From a virus: a stretch of 36,007 bases of DNA. Shown here one piece after another: positions 1,375-33,574 of the stretch. The translations under genes were made by a program, and so were the position numbers. Each line of letters opens with the position of its first letter. Positions within the stretch are counted from its first letter, which is position 1. Location: positions 1 to 36,007 of the IMG/VR virus record IMGVR_UViG_3300003690_000028; one strand, 5' to 3'. The notes beneath the pieces were generated by a model. That model was not told where the DNA came from and did no database searches. It saw nothing but the letters and a program-made list of their open reading frames with translations.

Positions 1375-1701
1375 TCAGTCGCCTCTCGCTTCCTTAATGG
1401 CGGCTTCGGCTACCACCACGGCCTCCAGCCCATTCAAGGCTTGGTACTTTTGCTCCCAGGCAGCGTCCACGATCGCCACATATAGCTTTTCCAGGGCCTG
1501 TAGTAGGGCGGGGGCAGAGGCTATCAGCCGTGCGTTAGCGGCACCCTCGTGGTTAGATGGTACGGGGTTGGTCATGTAACAGATCATATTTCCATAGGGT
1601 GCTTCGCCATAGATGCCACGCATCGTCCCGTCTCCGTTGTTGTGCCCGCGCCACGGCCCTGGTGTGTGTCTTGTCTGCTTCGTCTCTGTGATCTTCGCCA
1701 T
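1375..1701 (-). CDS. HTPGPW-motif phage protein, 108 aa
   Basis: From the ATG at 1701 the protein starts MAKITETKQTRHTPGPW. It ends with the block ANARLIASAPALLQALEKLY followed by a helical tail. HTPGPW plus ANARLIAxAPxLLxAL is a signature of a very common small phage and plasmid protein with no known function. An upstream in-frame extension was rejected because GGAGGG sits directly before this ATG. It is the second gene of the leftward operon. Confidence 0.75.
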   Translation of the reverse strand: MAKITETKQTRHTPGPWRGHNNGDGTMRGIYGEAPYGNMICYMTNPVPSNHEGAANARLIASAPALLQALEKLYVAIVDAAWEQKYQALNGLEAVVVAEAAIKEARGD

Positions 1702-1732
1702 GATCCGCCCTCCTTTGTGTGCTAGTTGTGTG

Positions 1733-1873
1733 CTAGTTGGCCGCAAGAATCTGGGCGCACTCGAGTATGTTGATGAGGTCACGCGCCCAATCCTCAGCTT
1801 GCTCATCCTTCCCACACTCCTTGTACGCTATGGCCTTGGCCAAGGCTGTCGCCGCTTCGCTCCGGTCTATCAT
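1733..1873 (-). CDS. small helical hypothetical protein, 46 aa
   Basis: This is the first gene of the leftward operon. The start at 1873 is fixed by GGGAGGT nine bases upstream and lies about 30 bases after the predicted transcription start. The product (MIDRSEAATALAKAIAYKEC...) is almost wholly alpha-helical and resembles small TPR-like or helical-hairpin proteins. No family was recognised. A tandem repeat of GTGTGCTAGTT at its stop supplies a second TAG. Confidence 0.6.
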   Translation of the reverse strand: MIDRSEAATALAKAIAYKECGKDEQAEDWARDLINILECAQILAAN

Positions 1874-1908
1874 GCTCCGACCTCCCTTTGTTAATTGACT
1901 ACACCGGC

Positions 1909-1938
1909 AGTGTACCCTAGCGGTGCATGGCTTGTCAA
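1909..1938 (-). promoter_or_regulatory. sigma70-type promoter of the leftward operon
   Basis: On the minus strand a perfect TTGACA (+ strand 1933-1938) is followed after 18 bases by TACACT (1909-1914, 4 of 6 consensus). The first gene's ATG at 1873 follows with a normal leader. It is back-to-back with the rightward gene at 1984. Confidence 0.7.
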
Positions 1939-1965
1939 GGGGTCTGGCCACGAATGATCAACTTA

Positions 1966-1976
1966 CGTGCTACACT
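1966..1976 (+). promoter_or_regulatory. extended -10 motif CGTGCTACACT
   Basis: TGC directly precedes TACACT. A start site about seven bases on would fall at the first in-frame ATG (1984), so the transcript would be leaderless or nearly so. The same core recurs at 3103 (CGTGCTACAAT) and 14773 (CGTGATACAAT), each just ahead of a rightward gene block. No convincing -35 box is present. Confidence 0.4.
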
Positions 1977-1983
1977 TCAAGGC

Positions 1984-2502
1984 ATGAGCATGCAACCCCA
2001 CGACAAGAACACTGGAATTACTCCCACACAAACGGCATGGCGCGAATCTCCCCCGGCCCAAGTTCCATGGCAATATCGCTATATCGTCGCCCGCCTCATG
2101 TCGGCTACCGATAATGACGCCGTGCGTAAGGCAAGAGTCTCTGTCCCTATTGTATTAAGAGAGTGTGAGATTAACCCGGAGTTCGCCGCCCTCAGGCAAC
2201 AGGCCATCGATCGTACTCTGACGCTGGATAATGAAGACTCGTCGCAACTCGCACGCGATGGGTTCCCACATCTGATACAGCGTGCCCTTGAGCGTGCCAT
2301 TGACCCTGATGTAAGGGATAGAGACCAGATAGCATGGGCACGGCTTGCGGGCGACGCTGCTGGCGCTATCGGGCCAGGTGCGCATCAAGGTTCAACCGGT
2401 GGATCACCCACGTCTCTGACATTCATAGAGAGATACATCGACATGCGCAAGACAATCAACAGAAGAGACGACGCAGTGATCGACCTTGACGGCCCAACGT
2501 AG
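1984..2502 (+). CDS. putative DNA-packaging (small terminase-like) protein, 172 aa
   Basis: This is the first rightward gene, upstream of the large terminase, where a small terminase subunit is usually found. The protein is mostly alpha-helical and charged, and its C-terminal helix (FIERYIDMRKTI) could be a coiled coil. No clear HTH could be read by eye, so the small-terminase label rests on position and helix content. The start is ambiguous: ATG at 1984 or at 1990. AAGG is correctly spaced for 1990, while the promoter-like motif would put the transcript start near 1984. A 390-base gap separates it from the next gene. Confidence 0.45.
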   Translation: MSMQPHDKNTGITPTQTAWRESPPAQVPWQYRYIVARLMSATDNDAVRKARVSVPIVLRECEINPEFAALRQQAIDRTLTLDNEDSSQLARDGFPHLIQRALERAIDPDVRDRDQIAWARLAGDAAGAIGPGAHQGSTGGSPTSLTFIERYIDMRKTINRRDDAVIDLDGPT

Positions 2503-2534
2503 AGAGAGAGGGGAGAGTATGAGAGGGGAGAGAG

Positions 2535-2561
2535 TGGTGGGAAGCTTAACATAACCCACCA
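2535..2561 (+). other. 7-bp hairpin after first rightward gene
   Basis: TGGTGGG (2535-2541) pairs with CCCACCA (2555-2561) around a 13-base A/T-rich loop. A C8T5 tract follows about 16 bases later. The T-run is too far away for a standard terminator, so this may be a weak terminator or a packaging-site structure. Confidence 0.35.
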
Positions 2562-2623
2562 TTAGCTTGACCTACCCCCCCCTTTTTATATGAACTTTTA
2601 CACCCTGTCACACCGGCGACCAT

Positions 2624-2644
2624 GTCCTGGGCGTAGCCCCTCAG
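2624..2644 (+). repeat. 21-base exact repeat, copy 1 (non-coding)
   Basis: The segment GTCCTGGGCGTAGCCCCTCA plus one G occurs here and again at 7325-7345 inside the 873-residue virion protein gene. A perfect 21-base match is not expected by chance in 36 kb. Confidence 0.75.
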
Positions 2645-2893
2645 CCTCAGGCAAGTACCCTCTCTCGATCCGGCTGCACTGTGTCGCACCACTACCAAAG
2701 GAACGCGGGGGGGGCCGGCGGGCATGGGCGCGAGGGCGGGCAGGGGGAGGGAATTATATGGGTGCCCAAAGATGCCACCGGGGCACTCTGCCTTCATTCG
2801 TGGGGTACCCCCCTCGGATTGCTGGGGTCGAGGGCCCGTCGGATATTTTCCCGGAAAAAATTCTGATGAATTGGGCAAAGGAGGTCTGTGGTG

Positions 2894-3037
2894 ATGGAGA
2901 ATATTGCGCAGGAAGGTGGTACGATGGAGGCTCATGCCCATATGATCACGCTCGGGCTAGATAAGGCGCTGGACTTGGGGAGGCCGCTTGGCTGGCAGTG
3001 GGAGCGTATCTTGGCTGGGGTCTCTGATCAGCCCTAG
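2894..3037 (+). CDS. small hypothetical protein, 47 aa
   Basis: A near-ideal ribosome binding site, AAAGGAGGT, lies nine bases before ATG 2894; GTG at 2891 is in frame and also possible. The product starts MENIAQEGGTMEAHAHMITL and ends with a helical, Trp-containing segment, GWQWERILAGVSDQP. No family was recognised. It stands alone, about 90 bases before the next gene, and is the only convincing coding sequence in the 2503-3130 interval. It may be a regulator or packaging accessory; nothing in the sequence decides. Confidence 0.6.
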   Translation: MENIAQEGGTMEAHAHMITLGLDKALDLGRPLGWQWERILAGVSDQP

Positions 3038-3102
3038 CAGCCTCCTTTCTTCGGGGCCTCCGGGGGTTCATACCGCCCTCGGGGGCCTCACGCTTTACCA
3101 GT

Positions 3103-3113
3103 CGTGCTACAAT
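3103..3113 (+). promoter_or_regulatory. extended -10 motif CGTGCTACAAT
   Basis: TGC-TACAAT (5 of 6 to TATAAT) sits 18 bases before ATG 3131, so the predicted transcript would start within a few bases of the AAGGAGG ribosome binding site. It shares its core with the motifs at 1966 and 14773. No good -35 box is seen. Confidence 0.5.
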
Positions 3114-3130
3114 CGCAGAAGGAGGGGACC

Positions 3131-3328
3131 ATGAACAAAGTGGAAATCATCATCACGCCTGATGAGCATGGGAACCTCAATGTCAACGGTCCTCTGGAGA
3201 ACAAGATCGCCTGCTACGGTATGCTAGAGATGGCGAAGGACCTCTTCCGCAGGTACGTCCCACCTCCTCAGAACGATCTGCGCTACACGGTCTGTTGCCA
3301 GGAGCCCTACCGGTACTGGAGCAACTGA
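3131..3328 (+). CDS. small conserved phage protein, 65 aa
   Basis: The ATG at 3131 follows GGAGGGG. The product (MNKVEIIITPDEHGNLNVNG...) has a beta-hairpin pattern with the block ITPDEHGNLNVNGPLENK and then a helix (YGMLEMAKDLFRRY). Small phage proteins with this form are widespread beside packaging or replication genes and are of unknown function. Its TGA overlaps the terminase ATG as TGATG, so the two are translationally coupled. A small terminase role is possible but not supported by motifs. Confidence 0.65.
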   Translation: MNKVEIIITPDEHGNLNVNGPLENKIACYGMLEMAKDLFRRYVPPPQNDLRYTVCCQEPYRYWSN

Positions 3329-4989
3329 TGACGGAGCAGCCCGCCCTCACCTTCGACGAGATTCTGGCCGATTGCATCTGGGCCGCTCGGGAAAAGAAGG
3401 ACTGGCTGCCATTTGCTCAGACGTTCCTCTCTGTCCGCAACATGGAGGGCCAGATTGTGCCGTTCAAACCCAACCGGGTCGAGATGGCGATACGCGACGA
3501 CCGCGTTATCCATGGCCATCGGCGCGTGATGCGCCTCAAGATGCGCCGCGGAGGCTCGACCCTCGCGGAGATCATCGCGGCCTTCACCTACAGCCTCGCC
3601 AACGCCAACTACAACACTGTAGTGGCGTCAGATGACCGCCAATCCTCCCAGCGTATTGTGAGCCAGCTCCTCGAACCCCTCGTGAACTCCGTGTCGGATG
3701 AGGTGACCCAGGCTCTTGGGGTGCGGATCGAGCTGGTGCGCAACGAGTTGAGGGTTGAGCACGTCACGTCGGACGGTCGGCCCAAGGGGCGCAGCATCAT
3801 GTTCATCGGGGGGCTGCGGGACGACTCCTTCGGTCTCGGCTACGATATTCACTACGGCATCATGACAGAGGCGGCGTATGCCCCCGAACGCGGCGCTGCG
3901 ATCTGGCTCGACCTTCTTCAGGCCGTGCCGTTTGACGGGCTCGTGACGGAGGAAACTACCGCGAGAGGCGTCGGTGGCCAGTTCCACAAGGACTGGATCC
4001 AACGTCAACGGGAGGGGACGTGGAAATGTCAGTTCTTCCCATGGCACATGCGGGAGACCGCCACGATCCCACCGGGTGACTCCAACCTGCCCCAAGAGAT
4101 CCGGGGAGACTTCGTCCTGAACGAGCGCGAAGAGGCGCTCCAGCGGGAGTTCGGCGTCACCCTGGACCAGTTCCGCTTCTACCGGTTCCACGAGGTAGAG
4201 GACGGCGACCTCGTCCGACAATACTACCCCAACGACGCGATGGAGGCGTTCCGCTCCACCTCCATGATCCAGTTCCCCGTCACCATGTTGGAGGATATGT
4301 ACAACAGCGCCCCATCGCCGCAGGCTAACCTCCCAGAGGAATGGCGCGGCACGATGGCGGGCCTGGACTGGTCCCCGAACCTTCCCCCAGAGGGCAATGG
4401 GCTCCGCATCTTCGAGCTCCCCATGGCGTCCCGATCCTATACCATTGGGATAGACAGCGGAAAGGGTGAGATATCCTCAAACCGCACCGTCGCACAGGTG
4501 TTGTGCGACCAGACGGGTCAGCAGGTCGCCATCCTCCGTGGGGTCTACCGGCCGAACGAGACGGTCGAGAAGGTCTACGGGCTGGGATTCGCCTATAAGG
4601 GGGGCGTCGACCCCGCATATCTCATTCCAGAGGCCAACGGGATCGGCGCCGGCATCTGCGACGGGCTGGAGAACGCGATGAAGTACCCGCCCCATCGCCT
4701 GTTCCGTCACGAGCCCAACCGGTCCTGCGGCTACTCCATGACAAGGGCCCGCAAGTGGGAGTTATTCACCACAACCTCCGAGGCAATCGCCGCGCTTTCC
4801 ATCACGCTCAACGATCAGGTCACGATCTCCGAGATGCTGACGTACCGGGCGGATAAGAACGGCAAGCTGTCCGCGCCAGAGGGGATGTTCGACGACTGTA
4901 CCGATGCGCTCATGCTGGCCTGCCACAACCGGTCTGCCAGCAGGATAGGGCTGGGGATGCCAAGAAAGAAGAGCACTGTCTATGTTTAG
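3328..4989 (+). CDS. terL: terminase large subunit (DNA-packaging ATPase/nuclease), 553 aa
   Basis: This is the motor that cuts concatemeric DNA and pumps it through the portal. The N-terminal ATPase carries a degenerate Walker A, RRGGSTL (residues 73-79), after the usual HRRVMRLKMR lead-in. Its Walker B position reads GIMTEAAY (177-184), with TE instead of the usual DE. The C-terminal RNase H-like nuclease shows GIDSG (Asp376), PEANG (Glu435) and DDCTDAL (Asp522/523/526), the three acidic positions expected. The start at 3328 is set by coupling to the upstream gene; longer in-frame starts overlap that gene and lack a binding site. Length is normal for the family. The gene ends inside a microprotein start and is followed by the portal gene. 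Confidence 0.88.
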   Translation: MTEQPALTFDEILADCIWAAREKKDWLPFAQTFLSVRNMEGQIVPFKPNRVEMAIRDDRVIHGHRRVMRLKMRRGGSTLAEIIAAFTYSLANANYNTVVASDDRQSSQRIVSQLLEPLVNSVSDEVTQALGVRIELVRNELRVEHVTSDGRPKGRSIMFIGGLRDDSFGLGYDIHYGIMTEAAYAPERGAAIWLDLLQAVPFDGLVTEETTARGVGGQFHKDWIQRQREGTWKCQFFPWHMRETATIPPGDSNLPQEIRGDFVLNEREEALQREFGVTLDQFRFYRFHEVEDGDLVRQYYPNDAMEAFRSTSMIQFPVTMLEDMYNSAPSPQANLPEEWRGTMAGLDWSPNLPPEGNGLRIFELPMASRSYTIGIDSGKGEISSNRTVAQVLCDQTGQQVAILRGVYRPNETVEKVYGLGFAYKGGVDPAYLIPEANGIGAGICDGLENAMKYPPHRLFRHEPNRSCGYSMTRARKWELFTTTSEAIAALSITLNDQVTISEMLTYRADKNGKLSAPEGMFDDCTDALMLACHNRSASRIGLGMPRKKSTVYV

Positions 4990-15490: not shown

Positions 15491-15943
15491 ATGCAGGCAG
15501 TGGATCGCTTCATGAAGAGAGTTCTCCTAGCACCCAATGGTTGCTGGGCCTGGACTGGCTATCTGGAGCGAAATGGCTATGGCCGGTTTACTGTCGGTGG
15601 AATACGCCGAGGCGCTCATTCCGCAGCGTATGAGTTCTTCTGCGGTCCCATTCCAAACGGACAGGAGATCGACCATCTTTGCCGTAACCATGCCTGTGTA
15701 AACCCGCACCATCTTGAAGCTGTCCTGCACGTCGTTAATGTTCGGCGTGGAGAAGTTGCAAGTTGGCAGCGGGAGAAGACTCATTGCCCGTATGGGCATG
15801 AGTACACAACCGTAAACACTTGTCTTAAAAATAACGTGTCGCGCCATTGTCGGGTATGTAATCGTACCCGAGCTGATGCCCTGCGAAGGCGGCAAGGGTG
15901 TCCAGTCATACCACATCGGGCGCGGCATCGGATCGCTGCCTAA
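15491..15943 (+). CDS. HNH homing-type endonuclease, 150 aa
   Basis: A free-standing HNH nuclease. The catalytic block reads EIDHLC...HACVNPHHLE (residues 59-76), preceded by the GCWAWTGY and YGRFTVGG strands typical of phage HNH proteins. A C-terminal zinc pair, CPYGH (99-103) and RHCRVC (118-123), follows. It starts three bases after the scaffold stop behind GAGGT and ends 12 bases before the capsid start, so it is inserted exactly between two genes normally adjacent. Its C-terminal zinc motif closely resembles that of the protein at 32500. It probably spreads by cutting genomes lacking it. Confidence 0.88.
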   Translation: MQAVDRFMKRVLLAPNGCWAWTGYLERNGYGRFTVGGIRRGAHSAAYEFFCGPIPNGQEIDHLCRNHACVNPHHLEAVLHVVNVRRGEVASWQREKTHCPYGHEYTTVNTCLKNNVSRHCRVCNRTRADALRRRQGCPVIPHRARHRIAA

Positions 15944-15948
15944 AGGAG
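15942..15948 (+). promoter_or_regulatory. ribosome binding site AAAGGAG defining an ATT start
   Basis: AAAGGAG overlaps the stop of the HNH gene and lies six bases before ATT 15955. No ATG, GTG or TTG lies at a suitable distance downstream. The position fixes ATT as the most likely capsid start. Confidence 0.65.
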
Positions 15949-15954
15949 ACCACC

Positions 15955-16902
15955 ATTCCTACCCTTTCAGAATACGCGAAACTCGCCAACGATGAGGTCG
16001 TGGCGGGCATCTTCGAGAATGTCGTGACGGAGAGCCAGCTCGCCCGACATCTCCAGTTCGAGTCATTCGAGGGCAACTCCTTGGTCTACAACCGGGAGAA
16101 CGTCCTGCCGACCGCGGCCACGTTCGCTGTCGGTTCCTTGTTGACGGACACCGAGCCGACCTTCACGAAGAAGACCGCTTCGCTTACTGAAATCTACGTG
16201 CAGAGCCCCCTCGACCGGTTCGTCATGATGACCAGGGGGAACGTCCAGTCTCAGGAAGCCGCGCTCTTCTCCTCCATGTCGAAGTCCATCGGTCGCAAGA
16301 TCGCCGACCTGACGATCACTGGAGAGCCTGAGTCCACCACTACCCAGTGGGAAGGGTTGGACTCTTTGGTCCGCTCCGAGACCCGCATGATGGCGATGGA
16401 CGACGGCGTCGTCGATGGGCCTGGGGTGGCTGAGACAGAACTTACCCTGGACCGCTTGGATGCCATGATTGATGAGGTCGAGTTCGGTGGACCTCAAATC
16501 CTCATCATGAACAAGCGGATGCGGAGGAAGTTGACCTCCCTCTCCCGGGCGTCTGGTTCCGGCATCCTGACTACCGAGATCAATGAGTTCGGTCAGCAAG
16601 TCTCTCGGTACAGTGGCATCCCCATTGTGATCGAGGACTTCATCACCAACTCCGAGGAGTACAACGACTCGTCCACCTGGGCCTCCAGCACGGCCACCAG
16701 CATCTTCGCCGTGCGGCTGGGCCGGGCCAACCAGGGCTACACCATCATCCATAACGGTACGGTGTTGCAGCCGGACATCCAGACCATCGGCATCAAGGAG
16801 AGCAAGAACGAGAACCTGTATCGGATCGTGGTCTACCTCCAAGCCATCACCTATTCCGCCAAGGCGGTTTCCGCTCTGGGCGGGATCGACGCAAACGCTT
16901 GA
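15955..16902 (+). CDS. major capsid protein (HK97-type fold), apparent ATT start, 315 aa
   Basis: This is the shell protein. It begins (I/M)PTLSEYAKLANDEVVAGIFE and continues with the NSLVYNRENVLPTAA block. This N-terminus is typical of a widespread phage capsid family of about 310 residues, usually starting MPTLSEAAKLSND. Later blocks such as GPQILIMNKRMRRKL and the C-terminal YRIVVYLQAITYSAKAVSALGG also fit. The in-frame codon at the family's normal start is ATT, with AAAGGAG six bases upstream. The only upstream alternative is GTG 15898, deep inside the HNH gene and poorly placed. The start is either a genuine non-canonical codon or a mutation or sequencing error at ATG. Confidence 0.85.
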   Translation: MPTLSEYAKLANDEVVAGIFENVVTESQLARHLQFESFEGNSLVYNRENVLPTAATFAVGSLLTDTEPTFTKKTASLTEIYVQSPLDRFVMMTRGNVQSQEAALFSSMSKSIGRKIADLTITGEPESTTTQWEGLDSLVRSETRMMAMDDGVVDGPGVAETELTLDRLDAMIDEVEFGGPQILIMNKRMRRKLTSLSRASGSGILTTEINEFGQQVSRYSGIPIVIEDFITNSEEYNDSSTWASSTATSIFAVRLGRANQGYTIIHNGTVLQPDIQTIGIKESKNENLYRIVVYLQAITYSAKAVSALGGIDANA

Positions 16903-23592: not shown

Positions 23593-25632
23593 ATGGGCCT
23601 CATCACGCTCGACTCCCAGAAGTACCCGGTCGACGGCTACATCCTGCGAGAGCCCTTCAGCCCCAAAGGGTTCCCCGACCCATCGCCTGAGTCCGGGGAG
23701 CCTTCCGAGAAGACCTACACCCCCGTCAACATCATCTCGCAGACTTCCCCCTTGGGTATCGGGCTCCTCCGCACCTACCAGGAAGATCGGGTTTGGGACA
23801 TGGAGGCTGATGCCCGTTTCCCCAGCGGCATCTATCCCCCTAGGCTCATCACCAGCACCACCTTCCCCGGAGAGGTTGCGGCTGTCCAGTTCCACGGCTT
23901 CGAGCAACTCAATGGCGACCTCTTTATGTTCGGCAAGGGTACGTCAACGGTAGTCACCGCTGATGAAGCCTGTCTCTACTTTGATGGCGCGAACTGGGCC
24001 GATACTACCACCAAAGACGACATTAACGACGATGGTGGCGGCGGTGCCGCGACTGGCACGCATATAGTCTCCAGCATGACGGCGCACGTTGGCAGAACCT
24101 ACCAAGCACTCATAGGAACCCTAACGACTAATGCTGCATCAGGCAGTGCCGTCATAAAGATCGTAAGGTCTGACGTTGGCTCTACAACCGCTTGGACTGC
24201 TGACGGGCTCTCTACCTCAGCTACGAGCAATGGTATGGGCAACGACACGCCCTACGGCCTGAAGACAGATGGGGACCTTATGTATTGCGCCACTTGGGAT
24301 GGTACCGACACTATCAGCATCAGGGAATCGCCCACCGGTAATGGTGGCGTGGACTGGAACGGCTTCACTGCGAACCCTACCATCCTGTCCTCCCGCGCTC
24401 CGGTGGTCGGTAACGCCGCCGTCATGTATGGTGACGGCACCATCACGCCTGTGCTGGACTACTGGTTAGGCACTGCCGAGGGACTCATACACGTTGACAT
24501 CAGCGCCGAGACGTTCGAGCAGGTGGTGTCGTTCCAGCACCCTCAGTCTTCGTTCAGCGGGACGCTTGTCAAGGCGGCAGACGGCCTTCTCTTCACGGAC
24601 GGGCCGCAACTCTTTTTCGGCAGGTGGGAGAACGGCGTCTTTGTCTTCACGGCGCTCGGCCCAGAGGGTATCGACGACGGTGTGCCGCTGGAGCAATTAG
24701 GCGACATCCAGTGGGTGTCCTACGATAACACCTTGGGTGAAGTCGCTATTGGCAAGGGCGGACTGGCGGCTGACCGGAACCAGGTGATCTATATCGGGAA
24801 CCTCAACGTTCTGCGGCGCGGTGATACCTCTGGATGGAGGGCCAAGATGGGGCGTAACACCACGGCCAATCGACAGTCCTTCGGCGGCGGCTACTCCAGC
24901 GAGACGGACGGCATCAACCGCCTGCACTTCGCTCGGGACAATGGCACTTCCAACGACTCCGAGGCGCTGTACCTGAACTACATCTCGGAGAACCCGGACG
25001 TGCAGACTGCGGCCACGTTCTTCTCCGGCGGCACCGTCACGACGAGCTGGTACGACGGCGGCGTGAGCGTGCTTCTGAAGGGTTGGTTCAAGGGCCGCTA
25101 CCGGGCCGATGACCTGACCTCTACCGAGACACTTGGGGTGAAGTTCGCCTTTGACAACGGGACGTTGGGGTCCAGCCAGAGCATCACGTCGGGCCCGGTG
25201 GGGAGCGTGTGGACGGATGGGGCTGGAGCGGTTGGTACAAGTGGGCGCAACATCCAGACCGAGATCACGATGGCCAGAGGGTCCACGACGACGACGCGGC
25301 CGGCGATCCGTTCCATCGGGTACGCCTTTATGCCAAAGGCGCTCAAGGACGACGGCACCCCCCTCATATCGTACAAGTTCACCATCTCGAGGGACCCAAC
25401 TCGGCTCCACCCATTCAGTCTCACGCCGGAGAAGGTGTTGAGCAGCCTGGACACTTCCTTTGCGAAGCTCCCACTTGTCCCGTTGACGTATGATGAGGGG
25501 AAGACGTCGGTATCGACAAGCGTCGTCATCTACCCATACAAGGTGGAGCAGAAGCCGGCGGACCAAGGTGGCGTGCTCGATGCCCAGTCTGAATACAAGT
25601 CCATCCCGATGATGTGCGTAGAGGTGATCTAG
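23593..25632 (+). CDS. tail nozzle / beta-propeller-like virion protein, 679 aa
   Basis: ATG 23593 follows GAGAGGA; an earlier in-frame start would overlap the whole end of the adaptor gene and is not credible. The protein is beta-rich throughout, with repeated blade-like patterns of aromatic, Gly and Asp residues (MFGKGTSTVVTADEACLYFDG, TPYGLKTDGDLMYCATWDG, LDYWLGTAEGLIHVDIS). In podoviruses the adaptor gene is normally followed by the nozzle, a beta-propeller closing the short tail. Size and order fit. No enzymatic motif was found. Alternatively it could be a second tail protein with a propeller. Confidence 0.5.
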   Translation: MGLITLDSQKYPVDGYILREPFSPKGFPDPSPESGEPSEKTYTPVNIISQTSPLGIGLLRTYQEDRVWDMEADARFPSGIYPPRLITSTTFPGEVAAVQFHGFEQLNGDLFMFGKGTSTVVTADEACLYFDGANWADTTTKDDINDDGGGGAATGTHIVSSMTAHVGRTYQALIGTLTTNAASGSAVIKIVRSDVGSTTAWTADGLSTSATSNGMGNDTPYGLKTDGDLMYCATWDGTDTISIRESPTGNGGVDWNGFTANPTILSSRAPVVGNAAVMYGDGTITPVLDYWLGTAEGLIHVDISAETFEQVVSFQHPQSSFSGTLVKAADGLLFTDGPQLFFGRWENGVFVFTALGPEGIDDGVPLEQLGDIQWVSYDNTLGEVAIGKGGLAADRNQVIYIGNLNVLRRGDTSGWRAKMGRNTTANRQSFGGGYSSETDGINRLHFARDNGTSNDSEALYLNYISENPDVQTAATFFSGGTVTTSWYDGGVSVLLKGWFKGRYRADDLTSTETLGVKFAFDNGTLGSSQSITSGPVGSVWTDGAGAVGTSGRNIQTEITMARGSTTTTRPAIRSIGYAFMPKALKDDGTPLISYKFTISRDPTRLHPFSLTPEKVLSSLDTSFAKLPLVPLTYDEGKTSVSTSVVIYPYKVEQKPADQGGVLDAQSEYKSIPMMCVEVI

Positions 25633-25742
25633 TGGCAAAGAACAGCGTTGGCTACGACGGTATCGCTCAGGGCACCGACAACGCCACCGTAGAGCGGGAG
25701 AAGGCGGCTGGGCTGCGCGAGTTCGAGGACCTGGAGGGTTAA
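25632..25742 (+). CDS. small hypothetical protein, 36 aa
   Basis: A GTG start sharing its G with the preceding TAG, behind GAGGTGAT. The peptide (VAKNSVGYDGIAQGTDNATV...) ends with a charged helix, EREKAAGLREFEDLEG. It exactly fills the gap to the next ATG, one base after its TAA, and its own last codons provide CTGGAGGG, the next ribosome binding site. No family was recognised. Confidence 0.5.
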   Translation: MAKNSVGYDGIAQGTDNATVEREKAAGLREFEDLEG

Positions 25743-25743
25743 C

Positions 25744-25902
25744 ATGACGGTCAAGCAGGCAGGCGGGAAGTTCAAGCTGATCTCCAGAACAGGGAAGACC
25801 CTTGGCACCCATCCTACAATGGCGAAGGCAGAGGCCCAAGAAAAAGCCATCCAAATCTCCAAGGCCCGGGCGGCCGGCCATAGAATTCCGAGGAGGAGTT
25901 AG
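25744..25902 (+). CDS. small conserved phage protein (GKTLGTH motif), 52 aa
   Basis: ATG 25744 is preceded by GGAGGG. The product contains FKLISRTGKTLGTHPTMAKA and then AEAQEKAIQISKARAAGH. This is a pattern seen in many tiny phage proteins: a beta strand with a GKxLGxHxT turn, then a helix with AxxQxxAIxxSKA. The function is unknown. It lies between tail genes and the SpeD-like gene, and its last codons supply the GAGGAGGAG site for that gene. Confidence 0.65.
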   Translation: MTVKQAGGKFKLISRTGKTLGTHPTMAKAEAQEKAIQISKARAAGHRIPRRS

Positions 25903-25906
25903 GAAG

Positions 25907-26275
25907 TTGCAGCTCCTCGTTGACGCCGTATACCAGCGCCAGTTGACCTTCGATGAGTTGTACCCTCTGGGGGAAGCCTTCGCCGGGCACATCGGCATGA
26001 CCACCATGGGACCAACCATCGTGGTCGGGCAGGGACACCCATGGGGTCTAACGCTGATCCAAGGTCTCATGGAGTCGCACTGGGCGGCTCATTACATGTT
26101 CCCACCAACGGTCTGCTTCGACGTCTTCTCCTGCAAATCCTTCGATGCTCAGAGCGCCCTGGACTATCTGATTAGGGAGTTTCTCCTCACCGACATCCTC
26201 CAAGTGCTCAATATAAAGCGCCATGCCGACGTGTTCGATGGCGCTAACCTTGTTCACGAAGGGAGTCTGCGATGA
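25907..26275 (+). CDS. speD: SpeD-like pyruvoyl-dependent decarboxylase, 122 aa
   Basis: A TTG start at 25907, eight bases after GGAGGAG. It encodes a protein the size of class-1 bacterial S-adenosylmethionine decarboxylase. The self-cleavage motif is present as MESHWAAHY: Glu56-Ser57 is the expected processing bond, Ser57 would become the pyruvoyl group, and His62 lies five residues on as in the family. CFDVFSCK supplies Cys76, matching the conserved DVFTCG acid. The canonical THTWPE segment is altered to YMFPP and is one residue shorter. Known SpeD enzymes make decarboxylated SAM for spermidine; some relatives decarboxylate arginine or ornithine instead. The substrate here is undecided. It would be a metabolic accessory gene in the late operon. 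Its stop overlaps the next ATG. Confidence 0.75.
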   Translation: MQLLVDAVYQRQLTFDELYPLGEAFAGHIGMTTMGPTIVVGQGHPWGLTLIQGLMESHWAAHYMFPPTVCFDVFSCKSFDAQSALDYLIREFLLTDILQVLNIKRHADVFDGANLVHEGSLR

Positions 26276-32474: not shown

Positions 32475-32503
32475 ATTCTACCCCCGCTTCGGTGCGATGT
32501 CAA
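32475..32503 (-). promoter_or_regulatory. consensus sigma70 promoter of the ATPase operon
   Basis: On the minus strand TTGACA (+ 32498-32503), a 17-base spacer, then TAGAAT (32475-32480). This is the best promoter in the window. The -35 box overlaps the stop codon of the upstream HTH/zinc gene. The predicted start is near 32468, giving about 85 bases of leader. Confidence 0.8.
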
Positions 32504-32997
32504 CCCATTGCCGCCTTCCGGCGCATATATCGTCTGTTGTTTTCCCGTTGCCTCTCTGGGTTCTCCCGTTGCCACCGGCTGGCACTTGCAATGTCGCAAG
32601 TCTTGCAGTGGCGCACCATGTACCCGGCCGCGTTCGTGTAGAAGGCCCTGGTATCTGGCGTGTAGAGGTGCCCTCTTGGGCAGTGGGTCTTCCCGTCTCT
32701 GGCCGACTTGAGAGCCGCATCAGAGCATCTTCTGCCGCAGTACTTCGCCCGCTTTACTTCGTAGGGGAGTACCTCCCGGGTCTTCGAGCAGCCTGGGTTC
32801 TGGCAGGGGATGGAGATGCGAGCCCCATGTGGGGCACCAGCCCTTGATGGCTCTGCCCTTGTCCGCACACCAGCCTTGTCGAGAACCTGGCGAACCCGTT
32901 CGCGCGACAAGCCAAGCGGATCGGCAAGCTCCCGTAGGGTCCGTCCTGGGTTCTCATGCCGGGCAATAATGATCAGCGCAGGGTCTATCCCTCGCAT
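32500..32997 (-). CDS. HTH plus zinc-motif DNA-binding protein, 165 aa
   Basis: ATG 32997 has AGGAGGAGAC upstream. The N-terminus contains a helix-turn-helix like sigma region 4 (residues about 19-43, TLRELADPLGLSRERVRQVL). A first Cys group follows (Cys65, Cys70, Cys87, Cys91), then a second: CPRGH (106-110) and RHCKTC (129-134). The second group is the same CxxGH...RHCxxC element found at the C-terminus of the HNH endonuclease at 15491. The tail is very basic. It could be a regulator, or an HNH-derived protein without the nuclease block. It lies just upstream of the consensus promoter and is a good candidate regulator of it. Confidence 0.6.
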   Translation of the reverse strand: MRGIDPALIIIARHENPGRTLRELADPLGLSRERVRQVLDKAGVRTRAEPSRAGAPHGARISIPCQNPGCSKTREVLPYEVKRAKYCGRRCSDAALKSARDGKTHCPRGHLYTPDTRAFYTNAAGYMVRHCKTCDIASASRWQRENPERQRENNRRYMRRKAAMG

Positions 32998-33013
32998 CAC
33001 GTCTCCTCCTAGG

Positions 33014-33574
33014 CTAGAATGGCCCCTCGTCCTCCGGCGCTTCGGCATGTGGCTTCGCCTCTTGGCCCAGCGCCTTCACGTCCACCCTGCCAGTTTTGAG
33101 CCAGTGATCGAACAGGTCTGCGAGCTCCAAAATGTGATACGGGCCCGGCTCCCCATTCTGGGCTGCGATCTTGGCCACTGCGATTTCCACTTCCACGGCC
33201 GCCTTGAGAGCCACCTGCCGCTCGATGGAGGCATCTCGACCGTCCACGAAACTACTGGGCTTGGGGGCGCTTGCCGCCGGAGTTGGTGCGGGTGGCGCAC
33301 CCGCCACCACGTTCTGGTAATCAAACCACCAACCTCTCTCCTCTTCGGGATCGCCGTCATCCTTCTGGCGTCCACGCTTCAAGTTGACGGTCACGCGGTC
33401 CCCATCCTGGAACGCCAGAACGTGCTCGTGTGGGACGCTGGTAATCTTCCGCGTGAACTTAGACGGCTTGCCGTTGAAGTCCGGCCTGATCTCCAGGGTA
33501 CAGAGGTCATCCTTGTTGGGCCTGCTCACGTTCTCTACGGTTCCTGACAGGATGATGGTTGCTGGGACTGTCAT
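33014..33574 (-). CDS. single-stranded DNA-binding-like protein (OB fold), 186 aa
   Basis: ATG 33574 follows AAAGGAGG; upstream in-frame starts lie in the RecT gene. The N-terminal 75 residues form an OB-fold pattern (TIILSGTVENVSRPNKDD, CTLEIRPDFNGKPSKF, DGDRVTVNLKRGRQ). A Pro/Ala linker and an alpha-helical part follow. The final residues EDEGPF are an acidic tip ending in Pro-Phe, as in SSB proteins, where it docks partner enzymes. Beside RecT, an SSB role in replication and recombination is very plausible. Confidence 0.65.
   Translation of the reverse strand: MTVPATIILSGTVENVSRPNKDDLCTLEIRPDFNGKPSKFTRKITSVPHEHVLAFQDGDRVTVNLKRGRQKDDGDPEEERGWWFDYQNVVAGAPPAPTPAASAPKPSSFVDGRDASIERQVALKAAVEVEIAVAKIAAQNGEPGPYHILELADLFDHWLKTGRVDVKALGQEAKPHAEAPEDEGPF

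Follow-up and report, generated by a model that had tools for sequence, protein, structure and literature searches.

Phages are known to carry homologues of SpeD, and those characterised by Li et al. (2023, PNAS; PMC9992855) were shown biochemically to be true S-adenosylmethionine (SAM), arginine or ornithine decarboxylases. The homologue from pelagiphage HTVC201P (122 aa) is an arginine decarboxylase, and five freshwater phage homologues (117-122 aa) are ornithine decarboxylases. The protein of Sinorhizobium phage phiN3 is reported to be a SAM decarboxylase although it lies inside the ornithine clade, and it restored spermidine in E. coli (PMC9992855). A 2023 JBC paper from the same group named the cellular relatives SpeDA (arginine) and SpeDC (ornithine), gave Gln, Thr, Phe and Tyr as diagnostic residues of SpeDC, and described a conserved Pro that separates SpeD from SpeDA (PMC10407285). 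We matched the phiN3 report to AKF13430, an accession absent from the main text of PMC9992855, because it was the sole phiN3 match found.

The SpeD-like protein considered here is encoded by an uncultured phage (IMGVR_UViG_3300003690_000028; hereafter UViG). The window, i.e., the whole stretch of 36,007 nucleotides that was analysed, is a linear 36 kb record that is possibly a fragment, with 59% G+C and no tRNA. The initial annotation stated that SpeD relatives can act on SAM, arginine or ornithine, which agrees with published enzymology, and proposed that an altered pocket may mean a different substrate for this protein. As substrate-shifted SpeD homologues were published in 2023 (PMC9992855, PMC10407285), such a change is an established phenomenon. 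Enzymes of this kind, and phages that encode them, are already known, so the novelty was overstated; the UViG protein is a very divergent further member. The gene and its predicted functional positions are:

25744..25902, plus strand: 52-aa ORF of the same gene run, matching phrog_3684 (unknown function) and ending 4 nt before the speD TTG
25891..25896, plus strand: AGGAGG, likely ribosome-binding site, 10 nt 5' of the TTG (read from the sequence)
25907..26275, plus strand: speD-like gene, 122 aa, TTG start (translation; Pfam PF02675 above the gathering score)
26060..26062, plus strand: codon of Gln52, at the SpeDC diagnostic Gln position (diagnostic set from PMC10407285; column mapping made here)
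26072..26077, plus strand: Glu56-Ser57, predicted self-cleavage bond, at which Ser57 would become the pyruvoyl group (homology to Thermotoga maritima Ser63; PMC10407285)
26090..26092, plus strand: His62, equivalent of T. maritima His68, assigned to processing and catalysis by homology (alignment)
26093..26116, plus strand: altered loop YMFPPTVC, one residue shorter, replacing TFPE/TWPE (SpeD, SpeDA) or FMELDGTAY (SpeDC)
26132..26134, plus strand: Cys76, equivalent of T. maritima Cys83, followed by Lys77-x-Phe79-Asp80 (alignment)

All 122 codons from the TTG are present in the translation, and the ESH at residues 56-58, His62, the DVFSC ending at Cys76 and the YMFPP after His62 are exactly as first described. 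The G+C content of the three codon positions (62/37/72%) is coding-like and resembles that of the adjacent coding genes. A 457-aa antisense ORF (24697-26070, minus strand) spans the tail gene and speD and has the mirror pattern of codon-position G+C, which suggests that it is a non-coding shadow.

Profile searches and structure prediction together confirm the assignment of the product to the SpeD family, with a predicted SpeD fold. The protein matches Pfam PF02675 (AdoMet_dc) at 31.7 bits (cut-off 25, E 2e-7) and phrog_3125, annotated as S-adenosylmethionine decarboxylase (E 2e-8), and scores 65 bits against a profile made from 111 relatives with the protein itself excluded. Thus, the match is not due to chance. 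An AlphaFold model made with an 87-sequence alignment (86 aligned relatives) has a pLDDT of 88.8 and superimposes on T. maritima AdoMetDC (1tlu) with Z 14.7 and an rmsd of 2.0 over 108 residues. The same enzyme is the best solved-structure match in Foldseek (E 1e-4), and the Aquifex enzyme 2iii gives Z 13.4. The comparison with SpeD structures that had been proposed as a check therefore matches the AdoMetDC fold, through an alignment-based model. From the single sequence AlphaFold gave no usable model (pLDDT 43), so the evidence for the fold leans on the family alignment and is not independent of it. Used alone as query against PDB sequences, the protein returned a chance hit only; with the family profile, the hits at meaningful E-values were exclusively AdoMetDC entries.

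Relatives were collected by scanning viral contigs with the SpeD homologue of a 735-kb phage record (31 loci) and with an alignment led by the UViG protein (65 loci), and by scanning bacterial and archaeal genomes (80 loci kept, largely Chloroflexota). HTVC201P, phiN3, S-PM2, YS40, P2559S and others were taken from phage records. A sequence taken as Bacillus subtilis SpeD was included as one SpeD reference. Close relatives of the UViG protein were not found in the viral contigs and phage records searched with it as sole query, and no match was obtained when the pattern ESHWAAHYMF was back-translated and searched for; the pattern FDVFSCKxFDA recovered one further SpeDC-type locus.

The relatives sort into SpeD (ESH, HT(W/F)PE, Cys-Gly), an 'ESH..SCK' (SpeDA-like) group and a 'Q..TS..HF..Y..SCK' group. 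In the last, the diagnostic residues of SpeDC recur (Gln 100, Thr 100, Phe 96 and Tyr 93%). An agmatinase-like gene, recognised by motif, is near the 'ESH..SCK' gene in 49 of 80 genome loci, a neighbourhood that fits the label SpeDA given to the group here. Near genes of the 'Q..TS..HF..Y..SCK' group none was identified at 56 loci, nearly all of them viral, a count confounded by the fact that phages seldom carry speB.

The Ser, His and Cys catalytic set is kept in all 112 aligned rows, the UViG protein included. Lys77-x-Phe79-Asp80 after the cysteine is typical of SpeDA-like and SpeDC rows; SpeD rows have Cys-Gly. Met31, Ser75 and Lys77 are likewise found in both SpeDA-like and SpeDC rows, and few or no SpeD rows carry them. 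With SpeDC rows the protein has Gln52, Gly35 and Ala107 in common, and Gln at position 52 occurs in 27/27 SpeDC-type rows and in none of the SpeD and SpeDA-like rows. Glu56 and His58 are SpeD/SpeDA features, Gly30 and Trp46 are as in SpeDA, and Tyr63 and Cys70 are typical of neither SpeDC nor SpeDA. By the column mapping made here, one of the four SpeDC diagnostic residues is present (Gln52), with Thr replaced by Glu56, Phe by Tyr63 and Tyr by Cys70. Among the 112 rows, the resulting Gln-Glu-Tyr-Cys combination is unique to the UViG protein.

The spacing between His62 and Asp72 is 9 residues in 3/112 rows (including the UViG protein), 10 in 104/112 and 11-12 in 5/112, and the near-invariant N-terminal His of the family is Gln2 here. 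Loss of the usual THTWPE run, which had been highlighted, is true of this protein, as is the shortening by one residue. The run is one yardstick only, as SpeDC-type phage relatives also lack it (they have a run like HFMELDGTAY). We rejected the idea that its loss alone signals a new substrate because SpeDC-type rows lack THTWPE as a group. The Pro of HT(W/F)PE, taken as the residue that separates SpeD from SpeDA, can be aligned with Pro66, in YMFPP, if one residue is inserted, and the Glu is lost.

The protein is nearer to the SpeDA-like and SpeDC branches than to bona fide SpeD by profile scores (SpeDA-like 46.4, SpeDC 42.1, SpeD 27.6 and HTVC201P type 23.0 bits). A careful 51-row tree places it to the SpeDC side of a branch with support 82/70 and does not join it with SpeDA, though the SpeDA-like profile gives the highest score. 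Its own branch is very long (2.9 changes per site) and is not firmly placed, as AU tests rejected neither a SpeDA grouping (p 0.39) nor a SpeD grouping (p 0.16). A quick 112-row tree was too loose for placement; holding the protein with SpeD gave a likelihood above that of the free search.

Comparison with individual proteins shows the same mixture. The phage SpeDC ornithine decarboxylases (Lake Baikal phage LBP, UCP01-04; PMC9992855) are similar in being phage-borne and in size (117-122 aa), and SpeDC-type rows share the Ser/His/Cys set, Gln52, FSCK-x-FD and an Arg-x-Ala tail. They differ in having Thr before the serine (Glu in UViG), Asn after it (His), Phe after the His (Tyr) and Tyr at position 70 (Cys); in addition, the UViG loop is one residue shorter and its gene is among late genes. 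Marinimicrobia-type SpeDA (PMC10407285; taken as the 'ESH..SCK' rows) share IGMT, Trp46-Gly47, ESH and SCK-x-FD, whereas the UViG protein has Gln52 for Val, Leu50 for a near-constant Gly and no HTFPE. The cellular SpeDA cluster genes speB and aguA/aguB, which are not required of phages, were not recognised among the scanned UViG ORFs.

The phiN3 protein (AKF13430) resembles that of UViG in Gln52, the acid-Ser-His run, an aromatic residue after His62 and FSCK-x-FD, but has normal loop length and the fourth diagnostic Tyr, and is otherwise divergent. HTVC201P AXH71538 has the same length of 122 aa, Gln52, Ser-His and the status of single phage polyamine gene; it differs in having Thr before the serine, a longer loop and a TCS motif, and its gene, unlike that of UViG, adjoins exonuclease and ribonucleotide reductase genes. 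T. maritima AdoMetDC (1tlu, 1vr7) shares the fold and equivalents of Ser63, His68 and Cys83, but identity over the structural alignment is 17% and the SAM-type Phe and HTWPE are missing in UViG.

We predict from these comparisons that the protein is probably a self-cleaving class 1b SpeD-fold decarboxylase belonging with the substrate-shifted enzymes, which act on arginine (SpeDA) or ornithine (SpeDC). Self-cleavage of the proenzyme would break the Glu56-Ser57 bond and convert Ser57 to a pyruvoyl group that, with His62 and Cys76, may decarboxylate an amino-acid substrate. Putrescine or agmatine could thereby be made from host amino acids and fed into the host polyamine pathway, probably late in infection and presumably to the benefit of the phage. 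As the sequence points to the SpeDA/SpeDC side and not to an ordinary SAM decarboxylase, putrescine or agmatine is the likeliest product.

The altered pocket proposed initially holds to the extent that residues, loop and profile ranking differ from SAM-type SpeD; a particular substrate is not fixed by the sequence. We rejected assignment of the substrate from clade membership alone because phiN3, a reported SAM decarboxylase in the ornithine clade, contradicts it. With mixed residues, a loose tree placement and this precedent, the substrate is not readable from clade or motif. Ornithine or arginine is favoured by the sequence: ornithine would be the leading candidate, held tentatively; arginine and SAM rank equally behind it as lesser possibilities; and lack of activity, or another substrate, seems unlikely.

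A true SAM decarboxylase like that of phiN3, feeding the host spermidine synthase, is the alternative that survives best, and we consider it possible and rather less probable than a shifted substrate. Were phiN3 the closer model, decarboxylated SAM would be formed. Glu56-Ser57-His58 is as in 13/13 SpeD rows, the SpeD grouping was not rejected by the AU test, and Gln52 with an acidic residue before the serine occurs in one of the 111 relatives, which is the phiN3 protein that restored spermidine. Against these points, the SpeD profile scores 14-19 bits under the SpeDC and SpeDA-like profiles, and residues typical of SpeD are replaced in UViG: Phe (100%) by Gly43, Pro-Glu (92%) by Pro66-Pro67 and Cys-Gly (85%) by Cys-Lys. 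The protein is also far under the cut-off of the class 1b SAM decarboxylase equivalog NCBIfam TIGR03330 (21.3 bits, cut-off 75.65).

The very long branch, Gln2 in place of a near-invariant His, the shortened pocket loop and the lack of close relatives in the viral contigs and phage records searched could also indicate a decaying or repurposed member in which decarboxylase function is gone, and fusions with a second SpeD domain that has lost active-site residues are on record (PMC10407285). We consider this unlikely: the frame is open with coding-type codon positions, and all processing and catalytic residues are retained while the rest diverged. It is improbable that the Gln-Glu-Tyr-Cys pocket and short loop define a further functional class with a substrate beyond SAM, arginine and ornithine, expressed with the structural genes so that polyamine is loaded onto packaged DNA, although neutralising packaged DNA, as first proposed, would in itself be a plausible role for phage polyamines.

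The UViG protein is a very divergent addition to a family in which shifts between SAM, arginine and ornithine are so far charted by few residues. Among the proteins compared, only those of UViG and phiN3 have both the ornithine-type Gln and an acidic residue at the cleavage site, and this rarity makes the UViG protein suited to testing whether the published diagnostic residues predict substrate.

Plus-strand genes of the window include those for a terminase, an HNH endonuclease and the major head protein, together with a series of structural genes, and several of these have co-linear matches in related viral contigs. The last large ORF 5' of speD matches a tail-region ORF of those contigs (26% identity), and 3' of speD are small proteins with predicted membrane segments, as read from their sequences. 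AAA, RecT and sigma-like genes are on the minus strand. The gene had been described as part of the late operon, with tail genes on one side and lysis-type genes on the other; the upstream head/tail homologues and downstream small membrane-type proteins agree with this in part, but no lysis family was matched by the UViG genes tested. At other phage speD loci most neighbours are nameless, and those that can be named are mostly DNA polymerase, thymidylate synthase, dCMP deaminase, primase and ribonucleotide reductase genes. Compared with these replication and nucleotide genes, a speD placed last among the late genes seems out of the ordinary, and such a position would be relevant to the question of why polyamine genes occur in phages. 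Sister phages found via the major head protein (~70% identity) share the head/tail module. A SpeD homologue was not found in the sister-phage sequence examined, which consists of fragments and hence gives no sign of absence.

Two other genes of the window have unusual matches. A 182-aa ORF (32500-33048, minus strand) has an N-terminal match to sigma-70 region 4 and a C-terminal match to HNH endonuclease, and the major head protein (15898-16902, plus strand) matches the SrpI-like type 2A encapsulin shell family weakly, with a score below the threshold.

Several of the collected loci encode more than one polyamine enzyme. At L085:5292-5636 and the paired loci L052, L057, L068 and L071, the SpeDC-type gene has a second SpeD gene, of SAM type (ESHISIHTWPE), close behind it, and those phages may thus produce putrescine as well as decarboxylated SAM. 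The jumbo phage MaAM05 of Microcystis (L040; MW495066) encodes a four-gene polyamine cassette at 1501-4279, with speE, speB and two SpeD homologues, one SAM-type and the other of the 'ESH..SCK' type. A SpeDC-type gene of Rhizobium plasmid p7 (L109, 2453-2839) is near ribonucleotide reductase and glutaredoxin genes, in an arrangement that looks phage-like.
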